Shown here: positions 5,397 through 57,765 of the stretch, one piece after another
How positions within the stretch are numbered: the first letter of the stretch is position 1
How the letters are laid out: every line of letters starts with the position of its first letter
Assembly (NCBI GenBank): GCA_015654525.1
Contig: JAATGT010000183.1
Location: 25,705 to 89,704 of the forward strand
From: Bacteroidales bacterium
GTDB taxonomy: Bacteria; Bacteroidota; Bacteroidia; Bacteroidales; Paludibacteraceae
Direction: 5' to 3'
Length of the DNA stretch: 64,000 nucleotides
Program-made: the position numbers and the translations under genes
Notes under the pieces: model-generated
What the model saw: the letters and a program-made list of their open reading frames with translations, nothing else
Database searches by the model: none
Told to the model about the DNA's origin: nothing

Positions 5397-6026
5397 TCAC
5401 AACACATAACTTTTTATCACATCACTCCAGATACGGGCAGGGTCAGTACGCGCTGCGGCTATGCGAAAGCAGTATTCCTGTCCGCTAATCAGCCCTTCAA
5501 TAAGAATTTTTCGTCGGGAACTGGTCACTTGTATCCATACACTATCCGGTCTCTGCGGAGACAGGCAATATTCTACAACATAAAACAGCGCACGTTTTAC
5601 AACGTCGCAACTAATATACAGACTCCCTTTGGAATCGCCCACTTGCAGCTTCACGTTGGTGGGTCTTTCCAGCGGCCCTACACGCGAAGCCCTGAAATGC
5701 ACCGAAAAACCGGCACTATACACTATAGCTGCATTCCCTTTACAAGCTTGCTGGACATAGATGGACATATTTTGCAGACTATCCTCCAATTTCTTGCGCG
5801 CGTCTTTTTTGACTATCGTATCTACCCTCGATCTGTCCTGCAAATTGCTCACACACACTTCAAAGTCAGCAACATTGATCTTTAAGTCGGCAATTAAATC
5901 TGCCGCATTCGGAAAATTCGGATTATCAACCATCCTTTCCAATACCGAAGAAGCAAATAACGCCAGCTCAAGATCCTTGTATTTGGCCGGAGCAAAATTC
6001 TTTGACACAATAACTTTTCTTATCAT
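5397..6026 (-). CDS. Small protein with N-terminal helical region and C-terminal fibronectin type III-like domain
   Basis: 209 aa; C-terminus ...PTNVKLQVGDSKGSLYISCDVVKRALFYVVEY...LIEGLISGQEYCFRIAAARTDPARIWSDV is FN3-like. Confidence 0.6.
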   Translation of the reverse strand: MIRKVIVSKNFAPAKYKDLELALFASSVLERMVDNPNFPNAADLIADLKINVADFEVCVSNLQDRSRVDTIVKKDARKKLEDSLQNMSIYVQQACKGNAAIVYSAGFSVHFRASRVGPLERPTNVKLQVGDSKGSLYISCDVVKRALFYVVEYCLSPQRPDSVWIQVTSSRRKILIEGLISGQEYCFRIAAARTDPARIWSDVIKSYVL

Positions 6027-6073
6027 ACCAGTCCTATTTTAAGATTAAACCCTTCGATATAAAATTGATTCGT

Positions 6074-6520
6074 AAAACTAGACAAACAACGGATTGCTGA
6101 CACAAAACAGGGCAATCGTTTAGTTGAATACCCCTTTTGCCTGTTCTATTCCAGCATTATTTGAAACAAACCGGCTCTTATTGATCTAAAACAGGGCATT
6201 ATACTAAAATAATACGTCGTTCATGTACCATTCCGGTCTGTTAGTGTGAAACAATACGCAATCTTTCATATACAACAGCATATTATTCATAAATAATAAA
6301 TTATTTTTCATTATAAACAGAATATTTCTTATGAATAACAGAATAGAATGGATATAAAATAGCCTATTATTTTGAGAGAATAAAGCAAAAATTGAAAAGT
6401 ATGCTTCAGTGGTTGAAGCTAATACGGCAGAATAAACAGAAAAGGGTTGTATAGTGGAATGAAACAAAAGATTAGAAACAAAAGAGAAAGTATTACAGAT
6501 ACAAAACACAACCGAAAGGG
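6074..6520. repeat. Degenerate tandem array of ~21-bp units (array 1), about 20 units
   Basis: Consecutive 21-mers: TTCATATACAACAGCATATTA / TTCATAAATAATAAATTATTT / TTCATTATAAACAGAATATTT / CTTATGAATAACAGAATAGAA / TGGATATAAAATAGCCTATTA; occasional 18- and 24-mers. Confidence 0.75.
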
Positions 6521-6813
6521 AAAGAAAAAAGCCGTTTTAATCAACTAAATACGTAGAAGAATATAATTTTGATCTATAAAAATGCGCTTTACATCTCTTA
6601 AAAATTGAATGGATACCGCTTCTTTGCCATTTTCTCCGAATGTTTCTACATGTCAACGGACAAACACTTAACATCACCATTTTAGTTGCCAGAAATAAAT
6701 AACTTGTTTTTATACAAAATCGTTGTTGGCAATTTTTTGCAGAAGAAGTTATCAATATCCGGTAACCCCTTGTGGACAGGTCAAAAATTCGCGCTTCAGA
6801 GTACGCTATTTTC

Positions 6814-13857: not shown

Positions 13858-13893
13858 GTACTTAGTTGACAGTTGATAGTTGAAAATTGACAG

Positions 13894-14256
13894 TTAATAC
13901 TTTTTGCTATTTTCTTTTGATGACTTGATTATGCTTACTAACATCTTGATTAATTCCTGACAATCCGATATTATAGATTGAAATGATTTTTCGTCAAAGA
14001 ATTCACTGTCATGCAAAAGCATCAACCAGTATTCAGTCTCATTTGCTTCTTTCAAAGCAATGCTCATCTTATGAATAAAATCAGCCTTTGATTCTGCGTG
14101 CTCAGCTTCTCTGATTAAAGCACCAACTGCGGTTCCGCTTCGTAGCATTTGTTTAGATAATACAAACTCTTTTTGCTCTGAGCTAAGAAATTTATATGCT
14201 TTAATTATGCGTAATGCAAATGTGTATGATTTAAATTTTACTGTTTTCTCTTCCAT
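13894..14256 (-). CDS. Four-helix bundle protein (S23/TIGR02436-like, Avd-related fold)
   Basis: KQMLRSGTAVGALIREAEHAESKADFIHKMSIALKEANETEYWLMLLHDSEF. Confidence 0.85.
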   Translation of the reverse strand: MEEKTVKFKSYTFALRIIKAYKFLSSEQKEFVLSKQMLRSGTAVGALIREAEHAESKADFIHKMSIALKEANETEYWLMLLHDSEFFDEKSFQSIISDCQELIKMLVSIIKSSKENSKKY

Positions 14257-14302
14257 ATAAATGTGTTATAAATCTTCACTATCAACTGTCAACTATACAC
14301 TG

Positions 14303-15067
14303 TCAACTGTCAATTCTTGTTGCTTTGCGTGCCAGTTGCTGAAATACTTCATCCATGCTATTGGCCTTAAATTGATTTTTGAGATTTCTTGGTGAATCTA
14401 GTGCTTCAATTTTTCCATCCACCATGATGGAAACCCGGTTGCAATATTCGGCTTCATCCATATAATGTGTAGTGACAAAAACAGTTATTCCACGTGAGGT
14501 AGCGTCGTAAATCAATTCCCAAAACTGACGGCGTGTGATCGGATCCACACCTCCGGTTGGTTCGTCCAAAAATACAACCTGCGGATTATGGAAAATCGAA
14601 ACCGAGAATGCCAGTTTTTGTTTGAAACCTAATGGTAACGAACCTACCAATTTATTCCGTTCGCTTTCAAAATCTAAGACCTGCATTAATTTATCGGTTT
14701 TCTCTTTGATCTCTTTGTCTTTCATTCCGTAGATACCACCAAAAAGTTCTATGTTTTCCAAAACCTTTAAGTCATCATAAAGAGAAAACTTCTGGCTCAT
14801 ATAACCTATATTTTTCTTTACCAGCTCCGTTTGCGTACCAATGTCGTATCCGGCAACAATACCTTTTCCTCCGGTGGGGATGCTGAGTCCGCTCAACATA
14901 CGCATAGCCGTAGTTTTTCCCGCACCGTTGGCACCAAGGAATCCGAAGATTTCACCCCGTTCCACTTCGAATGAAATATGATCGACTGCTGTAAAGTGCC
15001 CAAATTTCTTAGTCAGATTTTCGGCAATGATTACCTTGTTAGAATTATGTTCGATTATATCGTTCAT
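14303..15067 (-). CDS. ABC transporter ATP-binding protein
   Basis: Walker A GANGAGKT, VVFLDEPTGGVDP, TTHYMDEAEYCNR. Confidence 0.93.
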   Translation of the reverse strand: MNDIIEHNSNKVIIAENLTKKFGHFTAVDHISFEVERGEIFGFLGANGAGKTTAMRMLSGLSIPTGGKGIVAGYDIGTQTELVKKNIGYMSQKFSLYDDLKVLENIELFGGIYGMKDKEIKEKTDKLMQVLDFESERNKLVGSLPLGFKQKLAFSVSIFHNPQVVFLDEPTGGVDPITRRQFWELIYDATSRGITVFVTTHYMDEAEYCNRVSIMVDGKIEALDSPRNLKNQFKANSMDEVFQQLARKATRIDS

Positions 15068-27192: not shown

Positions 27193-27230
27193 TTTCTTTT
27201 TAATCATTTACTACCTGTTAGCACTCGGGG

Positions 27231-27376
27231 GCGACTAAAACCCACTAATTAGTGGCATCAAGTCGCTAATTAGCGATAAAAGCTGCTCCGGAGCGACTGC
27301 AACCTGCTAATTAGTGGCAACAAGTCGCTAATTAGCGACTAAAGGTTACTCCGGAGCGACAATGAACCACTAATTT
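27231..27376. repeat. Tandem array of seven ~21-bp units with palindromic junctions (array 2)
   Basis: Units begin at 27231, 27252, 27273, 27293, 27314, 27335, 27356 (steps 21,21,20,21,21,21); palindromes GTCGCTAATTAGCGAC, CACTAATTAGTG, CTCCGGAG. Confidence 0.9.
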
Positions 27377-36355: not shown

Positions 36356-36500
36356 TTCTGAAATTTTCAAAAGCTTTGCGACGACTGTTTTTGCCTTTCT
36401 GAAAATTTCAAAAGCTTCCCAACGACCGTTTTGGTCCTTCTGAAATTTTCAGAAGCTTCGCGACGACTGTTTTAGTGTTTCTGAAAATTTCAAAAACACA
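36356..36500. repeat. Alternating 21+20-bp (41-bp period) direct-repeat array (array 3)
   Basis: TTCTGAAA/TTTTC cores start at 36356, 36397, 36438, 36479 (exactly 41 bp apart), alternating with TGCGACGACTGTTTTTGCC-type half-units. Confidence 0.9.
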
Positions 36501-36623: not shown

Positions 36624-37253
36624 ATGAACCTAAGTATTGACCAACTAAAATCCAAATTCCAACAACCATTGCCTGGTACAGCTTCACACCTGAAGTTGGC
36701 ACCACCAAACAGGGGCAAGGAGCTGTTGGAGAAACAAAACTATCTCCTTTCGGCCAGACAAAGTGCCGTAATGGTTCTGTTATACCCTGTCAACAATCAG
36801 CTTCGGACGGTATTTATTAAACGCAGCGAATACGATGGTATACACAGCGGTCAAATTGCTTTTCCGGGAGGGAAAAAGGAAAAAACTGATCAAAATTTTG
36901 AAGAAACAGCACTGCGGGAAACATGGGAAGAAGTAGGAATCAAATCCGATGAAATAGAGCTGATCGGGCAACTCTCCGACCTGTTTATACCACCAAGCAA
37001 CTTTATAGTGAAACCTTTCGTCGGATATTGTACAGGTCAACCGACATATAAGCTTGATCCGAGGGAAATTCAATCTGTAGTTGAAATAGATTTAGCTGAT
37101 TTTTACTCGGAAAACCGTATCTTTGAAAAAGAATTTAGTTCGGGGACATCCGGACAAGCGATCAAAGCACCATACTTTAACATTAGAAACATTGAAATAT
37201 GGGGAGCAACAGCTATGATAACAAGCGAGTTGTTGGATGTGTTAAAGTCTTAG
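36624..37253 (+). CDS. NUDIX CoA pyrophosphatase
   Basis: SGQIAFPGGKKEKTDQNFEETALRETWEEVGI NUDIX box. Confidence 0.9.
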   Translation: MNLSIDQLKSKFQQPLPGTASHLKLAPPNRGKELLEKQNYLLSARQSAVMVLLYPVNNQLRTVFIKRSEYDGIHSGQIAFPGGKKEKTDQNFEETALRETWEEVGIKSDEIELIGQLSDLFIPPSNFIVKPFVGYCTGQPTYKLDPREIQSVVEIDLADFYSENRIFEKEFSSGTSGQAIKAPYFNIRNIEIWGATAMITSELLDVLKS

Positions 37254-53401: not shown

Positions 53402-53473
53402 AATTTGATTTTAAATTTACGATTTCGGATTTACGATTACCGATTGCGGATTTATGATTTACGATTGCGGATG

Positions 53474-56548: not shown

Positions 56549-57214
56549 TCAACCTGCAATGATGGCACTTAGCGTAGTACTCCACGGACCATGTTCGCCG
56601 CGGGTATTTACCCATCGTAGCCAATAATAAGCCAGGATGTTTGCCTGCTTACCTTCATAATTGGTTATGTACGAATTGCCGGTAGATGTGCCCAGATAAG
56701 TAAGTTCGGAAACGTCTTTGGGCGCTTCGCCACCCAGTTTTACCCATACTTCACAACCATGCACTCCTGCGGGTTTAGCCTTGCTTTGAGGCGTAGCTTC
56801 GTCGCTAATGTGAATGGTGTGTTGCAAACGTACCCCAAAATCCAGCGTTCCCAATGGACTGGTAGCAGGCACAGCTGCAGGTGTACGTGTTTCCGACTTC
56901 ACCGTTAAGCCCATCTGGACGCGGTCGCTGTCGGTCACCTTACTGTTGTTTGCCAAAAACTCAGCCACGAAACTACGAATTTCTTTTTTGTAGTCAACCA
57001 GAGCATCGTTTTTAGCCTGCACATCAGCAGCCGTACGATTTTGTTTGTTACTCGCTTTGGAAAACGCATTGTCCCAAACGCCTTGTTTTGATTCCAGTGA
57101 TGTTGTAGCATCAGCACTGATTCCCCATGTGGTTTGTTTAGCTTTGACATTAGTCAGCAAGCCTTTCTGCCACAAATCAAATCCGGGGTCGGTAGATGGA
57201 ATATAGTCTGCCAT
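56549..57214 (-). CDS. Small protein with N-terminal helical region and C-terminal fibronectin type III-like domain
   Basis: 221 aa; C-terminus GCEVWVKLGGEAPKDVSELTYLGTSTGNSYITNYEGKQANILAYYWLRWVNTRGEHGPWSTTLSAIIAG. Confidence 0.65.
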   Translation of the reverse strand: MADYIPSTDPGFDLWQKGLLTNVKAKQTTWGISADATTSLESKQGVWDNAFSKASNKQNRTAADVQAKNDALVDYKKEIRSFVAEFLANNSKVTDSDRVQMGLTVKSETRTPAAVPATSPLGTLDFGVRLQHTIHISDEATPQSKAKPAGVHGCEVWVKLGGEAPKDVSELTYLGTSTGNSYITNYEGKQANILAYYWLRWVNTRGEHGPWSTTLSAIIAG

Positions 57215-57267: not shown

Positions 57268-57765
57268 CAGATCAGAAAAAGAGCTTTTTACTTTCGGCAT
57301 ATTAGAATAACTAAGAGGAAAGAAACTTTTTCCCTCTGGAGCAAAAAACTCTTTTCAGCATAATATTGCATATTGTCTGAGTAAAAAAGATCTTTGTTTT
57401 GTTAAATAATATATTCGCTTAAATCAAAAACTTTTTCACTTAGGCATGGATAAATCTAACTTGAGTCAAAATGAATCTGACTAAGGCGAATATAACACCG
57501 GTTTGAGCCAAAATGGATGTTGCTTAAGACATACATATTCAGCCCGGTGTACATTATCTTCGGATAAAGCGAAGAAGGTTTTGAACAAAATGGAAAAGGT
57601 TTTGGCTTAAGTGAAAAACAGATCAGCCTAAGTGGAACTGATTTTGAATGAAGTGAGATTATTTTTAAACCGAGCAAGAACCATTTTGGCTCTAGTTGGA
57701 AACTTATTTGCTTAAGCAAGGATGCTTTTTTATCGAAAAAAGAGGAATGATTCCAAGAAACAGCC
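57268..57765. repeat. Degenerate tandem array of ~21-bp units (array 4), about 24 units
   Basis: TTCACTTAGGCATGGATAAAT / CTAACTTGAGTCAAAATGAAT / CTGACTAAGGCGAATATAACA / CCGGTTTGAGCCAAAATGGAT / GTTGCTTAAGACATACATATT ... TGGCTTAAGTGAAAAACAGAT / CAGCCTAAGTGGAACTGATTT. Confidence 0.8.

Follow-up and report, generated by a model that had tools for sequence, protein, structure and literature searches.

In plasmid iteron and centromere arrays (ParR-parC, TubR-tubC, Rep iterons), tandem sites are set at whole helical turns beside the gene for a small protein; B-DNA has 10.5 bp per turn, so that 21 bp corresponds to two turns. In type III toxin-antitoxin systems, repeats of ~35-48 nt are followed by a terminator that precedes the gene for a toxin with an RNase fold. 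The BrickBuilt and PgRS MITEs of Porphyromonas gingivalis are intergenic tandem arrays of 23 and 41 nt (PMC4596501). The TAACTGA heptamers are directly repeated in the intergenic DNA 5' of genes, and the Bacteroidetes that carry them include P. propionicigenes (PMC4679880). Here, we analyzed a stretch of 64,000 nucleotides of Bacteroidales DNA (the window) in which a tandem array of 21-bp units lies 5' of each of two small genes. In the open full-text literature searched, no account of an association between such genes and such arrays was found.

Two 21-bp arrays and two predicted helical-FN3 proteins

The two genes, which we assign to families A and B, and their arrays are listed in Table 1. 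A preliminary description of this DNA had claimed that the region 5' of the family A gene reads as 21-bp units, and that their consensus differs from that of the other 21-bp array in the window. In the segment 6074-6520, base identity was 0.43, 0.45, 0.40 and 0.46 at lags of 21, 42, 63 and 84, relative to 0.30 (sd 0.03) at other lags. The sum of the lag-21 and lag-42 values gave z = 10.2 against dinucleotide shuffles and was reached by 0 of 2000 shuffles. A profile held in a single register retained 20 of 23 units over 6078-6539, with a mean pairwise identity between units of ~41%, and Tandem Repeats Finder detected 3.4 copies of a 21-bp unit at 6274-6345 (score 60). Array 1 is thus confirmed as a genuine, degenerate array of about 20 units of 21 bp 5' of the family A gene, as had been claimed; the four units quoted in the preliminary description are its best-preserved portion, and the consensus quoted there is the reverse complement of the gene-sense consensus. 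The same lag test gave z = 8.7 for array 2, which is therefore real and carries a single 1-bp shift between its two halves. The two arrays have no consensus in common, so that the second part of the claim also stands. The units are contiguous and head-to-tail without spacers, unlike a CRISPR array, in which unique spacers separate identical repeats and cas genes are present.

Table 1. Coordinates of the genes, arrays and spacer in the window.
Feature	Position	Strand	Description
Family A gene (P0001, 209 aa)	5397-6026	(-)	ORF; AlphaFold2 pLDDT 85; Foldseek FN3 matches; paralogues in own genome
Spacer, array 1 to start codon of family A gene	6027-6077	(-)	
Array 1	6078-6539	(-)	21-bp units (~22) sharing one register, best preserved at 6246-6371; consensus in gene sense roughly AATAATGnnCTGTTTTnT
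Family B gene (P0002, 221 aa)	56549-57214	(-)	ORF; AlphaFold2 pLDDT 82.5; Foldseek FN3 matches; paralogues
Array 2	57324-57743	(-)	21-bp units (~20) with consensus CTTnagccAAAAnntTTttCA; flanks degenerate, reaching ~57300 and ~58060

Arrays of other kinds were also seen in the window. A 62-bp array between convergent genes (27223-27375) alternates the palindromes CACTAATTAGTG and CGCTAATTAGCG and adjoins no family gene, and a 41-bp array of 3.4 copies (36356-36495) lies 5' of a Nudix hydrolase gene (36624-37253). Short 7-bp arrays at 53407-53472, 13864-13895 and 14278-14313 (ATTTACG, AGTTGAC and ACTGTCA) lie between genes or at their edges, and are reminiscent of the heptamer repeats of PMC4679880.

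Both proteins are predicted by AlphaFold2, with alignments built from window and fetched sequences, to consist of three helices (residues 18-32, 42-60 and 67-95 of P0001, pTM 0.50; residues 11-25, 34-55 and 62-87 of P0002, pTM 0.49) followed by an FN3 sandwich. The best PDB matches of both proteins in Foldseek are FN3 domains, and with target-normalised TM of up to 0.82 for P0001 and 0.78 for P0002 the predicted sandwiches have the fibronectin type III fold; of 26 members of family A, 12 have fn3 matches with E up to 0.01. No Pfam domain covers the helical part in any member of alignments A3 and A4. Short FN3 matches to phage tail profiles and viral structures reflect the common fold only. Since the full-length profiles of the two families are collinear on alignment (E 1e-4 to 6e-4) and the helical N-terminal halves align on their own (hhalign E 2.5e-5, probability 75%), families A and B are probably homologous. 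The profile-profile and structure-prediction comparison therefore agrees with the preliminary description, which had ascribed the same layout to both proteins. Among close family B orthologues dN/dS is 0.05-0.19, and thus the proteins are maintained by purifying selection.

Association of arrays with the gene families and their fixed unit length

An array of 21, 42 or 63 bp was found directly 5' in 47 of the first 52 homologues (best lag 21, 42 or 63 within 1000 nt of the gene), as compared to 0 of 48 on the 3' side and 14 of 801 control genes (Fisher p = 9e-59). The controls were genes in 1.2 Mb of a relative's genome, G016, a single contig of 3,685,504 bp, each scored on whether a 21n array lay no more than 600 nt away. 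Two of the homologues, C358 and the second gene of the window, fell just below the score threshold although their best lag is 21, and therefore the count of 47 is conservative. These results support the earlier proposal that array and gene form a functional module, the scan of the 1.2 Mb placing their association far above chance. The distance from array end to start codon has a median of 118 nt, and array length a median of 247 bp.

The pairing extends beyond the window in several directions. Three further paralogues in the same genome have arrays of 21, 63 and 84 bp, homologues in other classes of Bacteroidota carry 21n arrays, and arrays were found at distant loci in a genome of 64% GC (L160), a Verrucomicrobiia bin (L153) and GC-rich IMG/VR contigs (L140 and L144). 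A detectable array was absent at C183, L028 and L141-L143, and at L060 the nearest array lies >900 nt from the gene. ORFs that match the FN3 half alone (L161-L168) have no arrays. The same pairing in unrelated bacteria points to a two-part genetic system, of which the open full-text literature searched gave no description.

Nearly all loci keep a period of 21n, yet each has a unit sequence of its own. Five arrays (L038, L055, L065, L074 and L076) have a period of 42 or 63 with almost no similarity at lag 21, and L224 is periodic at 63; therefore, unlike 21-mers are held at exact multiples of the unit. A single array, at L155, was measured at 85. Among 22 degenerate arrays tested for register (~38-58% unit identity), 13 showed zero phase shift between their halves and several others a shift of 1-2 bp, in a test that is partly circular because the arrays were delimited by constant lag. 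The constancy of length bears on the possibility that these are neutral minisatellites, and that the genes merely adjoin one of many intergenic tandem arrays, of which the 1.2 Mb of G016 holds 55 of all periods. Such chance adjacency is highly improbable given the 5' counts relative to the 3' side and to the control genes, a period fixed at 21n across phyla in DNA of 32-64% GC, and a register kept in many degenerate arrays. Elsewhere in G016, small helical genes at 1086835-1087521 (+) and 689090-690010 (+) have 61- and 85-bp arrays 5', and the second of these carries a carboxypeptidase-regulatory-like domain.

The distribution of both families is patchy. The window's own genome has ~13 family A places, some of which are broken; of family B, it has at least 3 genes that are intact. 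Family A was found in 20 and family B in 14 of 60 relatives, some of the weakest family A matches being FN3-only, and in 8 and 3, respectively, of 299 genomes of the phylum, the own genome counted. Plasmid records gave no match by tblastn, plasmid and phage records together gave no credible relatives, PADLOC gave no credible model match to an anti-phage defence system, and an Rfam search found tRNAs as the only families. Patchiness and many copies per genome are what would be expected of a minimal mobile cassette spread by an unlinked enzyme, with the array as its end or transfer site. Consistent with this, L023 (C326) and L221 (C276) are a recent duplication of array and gene, 89% identical and with a stop codon in one copy, and the duplicated copy starts at the 5' edge of the array; its right boundary, however, lies beyond the contig end. 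Most copies are old, diverged and provided with different arrays. Relatives of the window locus keep the Band_7 gene but have different upstream DNA, with no empty site or insertion boundary readable, and no transposase was noticed next to the window genes, so that we regard mobility of this kind as very unlikely. The neighbours of the family A window gene are Band_7 and DUF4922 genes, with no linked partner gene evident.

A second group of small, multi-copy helical proteins in the same genomes, DUF6261 (PF19775), also has locus-specific arrays 5' of its genes. An array was present at 26 of 30 fetched DUF6261 loci (L182-L211), mostly of 41-43 bp, and each of the four in the 1.2 Mb of G016 had a period of 42 bp; the own genome has 22 DUF6261 places, including one ~10 kb before the window (G000:C93:15174-15590). 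In contrast to families A and B, the period is 41-43 bp and not 21n, and an FN3 domain was not recognised. P0001 and P0002 have no PF19775 match and membership in DUF6261 was rejected, and profile comparison gave a sequence relation that is at best marginal. DUF6261 and its arrays are possibly a parallel module.

Unit sequence and the candidate ligand of the array

Dyads are frequent in the units, as in TTGGAA-n5-TTCCAA at L160 and TTCC-n9-GGAA at L140, and the consensus dyad test gave a mean z of 1.23; a clear dyad is absent in about a third of the arrays, both window arrays included. In predicted folding stability the arrays surpass their column-permuted versions (mean z -2.6, 69 arrays tested), and do so to the same extent on the two strands. 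Covariation within the dyads was considered as proof of hairpins and rejected, the value of 0.088 being no different from a null of 0.087 that includes best-axis selection.

A length of 21 bp is also seven codons, and the array might encode a peptide of heptad (7-residue) repeats. Both window arrays are crossed by an open frame, and arrays with an open frame somewhat outnumber what column permutation leads one to expect (39 as compared to 26.9, of 54). Nonetheless, 15 of the 54 have no open frame among the six, and an open sense frame exists in just 26, which makes a coding role the least probable of the explanations considered here: the arrays are mostly non-coding.

Could the array instead be recognized by a shared host factor, for example a nucleoid protein or a regulator of transcription, through which the expression of these genes is set, leaving the small proteins to unrelated work at the surface or as a scaffold? 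No known DNA-binding domain (RHH, wHTH) was found in P0001 or P0002 with Pfam, NCBIfam or Foldseek, and the arrays of DUF6261 genes suggest that such arrays may be regulatory regions of a more general kind. A shared factor should nevertheless give common sites within a genome, and the units differ at every locus. The C148 unit, searched genome-wide with up to 2 mismatches, has 7 occurrences, all inside its own array, which argues against a trans regulon for this motif. Unit sequence moreover tracks the protein clade: unit similarity follows protein identity with Mantel r of 0.65 in family B and 0.32 in family A (p 0.0005). On this evidence we consider a host factor unlikely.

The co-inheritance of unit and protein is explained in part by descent, as plain descent would also lead one to expect it. 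In the pairs L037/L039 and L039/L053, at 58-61% protein identity, the unit is common to both members and the spacers cannot be aligned; that the unit is kept where the spacer is not suggests selection on the motif, judging from these alignments. Below ~55% protein identity the units have no detectable similarity. Partial correlations hint at a closer tie of unit sequence to the FN3 half than to the helical half (0.36 and 0.00 in family B; 0.21 and -0.03 in family A), but are too weak to use.

The array might also act as RNA, transcribed as a long 5' leader whose 21-nt hairpin-like repeats bind the protein, in the manner of a type III toxin-antitoxin system or an autoregulated leader. Such a leader would fit a small gene that stands alone immediately behind a tandem array, its patchy distribution, and the better folding of the arrays relative to their column-permuted versions. 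In the first 50 loci, 8 matches to the Bacteroidetes promoter TTG-N17-25-TAnnTTTG fell within the 200 nt before the array, where 1.4 were expected, and the spacer had 2; with promoter matches commoner 5' of the array than in the spacer, the array would sit in the mRNA leader. In contrast, 16 more distant loci showed no promoter excess 5' of the array, and antisense matches were more numerous there. An intrinsic terminator (hairpin and T-run) was found in 0 of 49 spacers. Folding is as good for the antisense as for the sense strand (p = 0.39), giving no strand signature, and G-T mismatches in the dyads show no clear excess over A-C mismatches (145 vs 122). At L153, where the array lies 583-272 nt 5' of the gene, the last three units nearest the gene are inverted, so that units occur in both orientations. 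A Kid/PemK-like endoribonuclease or other RNase fold is absent from P0001 and P0002 by AlphaFold2 and Foldseek. We favour an array that acts as duplex DNA, with the RNA leader as a less likely but serious rival. As a separate observation, reverse-orientation units near array edges exceed the reversed control overall.

We propose that gene and array would form one self-contained genetic module, the gene encoding a small protein in which no catalytic domain is predicted. The array would be a run of ~5-20 binding sites spaced at exactly two B-DNA turns (21 bp, with composites of 42, 63 and 84 bp), a spacing that would bring each site to the face of the helix on which its neighbours lie. As ligand, the product of the gene itself would be the most likely, probably in dimeric form given the many palindromic units. 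Cooperative binding of this protein to its private array would give a nucleoprotein array, which may control transcription of its own gene or mark the locus. We give a probability of roughly 40% to this reading, in which the product of the gene binds a repeated, same-face site with a phase of two turns. Protein binding to the array, the identity of that protein with the product of the adjoining gene, a target of double-stranded DNA and not RNA, and the purpose of binding are all steps that we infer. The main weaknesses of binding by the gene's own product are that no known DNA-binding domain was found and that the helical domain is mildly acidic (pI ~5.4), the FN3 part being near neutral.

More tentatively still, the pairs may represent a class of modules, selfish or self-marking, that spans phyla. 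In each, a small helical-FN3 protein would go with a private array whose unit length stays fixed at two DNA turns and whose sequence drifts with the protein. Each address would then have its own orthogonal nucleoprotein or ribonucleoprotein array, and the 41-43-bp arrays of DUF6261 would be a parallel version at four turns. If the protein does read its own array, dozens of orthogonal protein/DNA-array pairs would exist in nature. They would open the way to a new recognition code built on an FN3-like scaffold, and the system would be a chromosomal one without known counterpart. Even with another ligand, a tie between tandem arrays and a gene family that holds across phyla through length and not through sequence is a rule of genome organisation, and no description of it was found in the literature searched.

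Comparison with known systems

The TAACTGA heptamers (PMC4679880) have a fixed 7-bp sequence, whereas the family A and B arrays have a fixed unit length and a free sequence. Like the family A and B arrays, BrickBuilt and PgRS are intergenic tandem arrays in Bacteroidales (PMC4596501); they are dispersed copies of one sequence with no tie to a gene family, whereas the units described here are locus-specific and gene-associated. Consistent with this difference, the confinement of the C148 unit to its own array is not the dispersed pattern of a MITE of this type.

The type III toxin-antitoxin systems (ToxIN, AbiQ, CptIN, TenpIN) likewise have a tandem array before a small gene and a patchy distribution. 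They differ from the window system in its 21-bp units, in its spacers without terminators, and in a protein that is helical and FN3-like. The window system also differs from plasmid iteron and centromere arrays, in that it lies on chromosomal contigs and is solitary, with no NTPase or Rep partner seen and no known DNA-binding fold, and in that its unit sequence differs from copy to copy within a genome. What it shares with them is the arrangement itself: tandem sites at whole helical turns, here with a period of 21n, adjoining the gene for a small protein.
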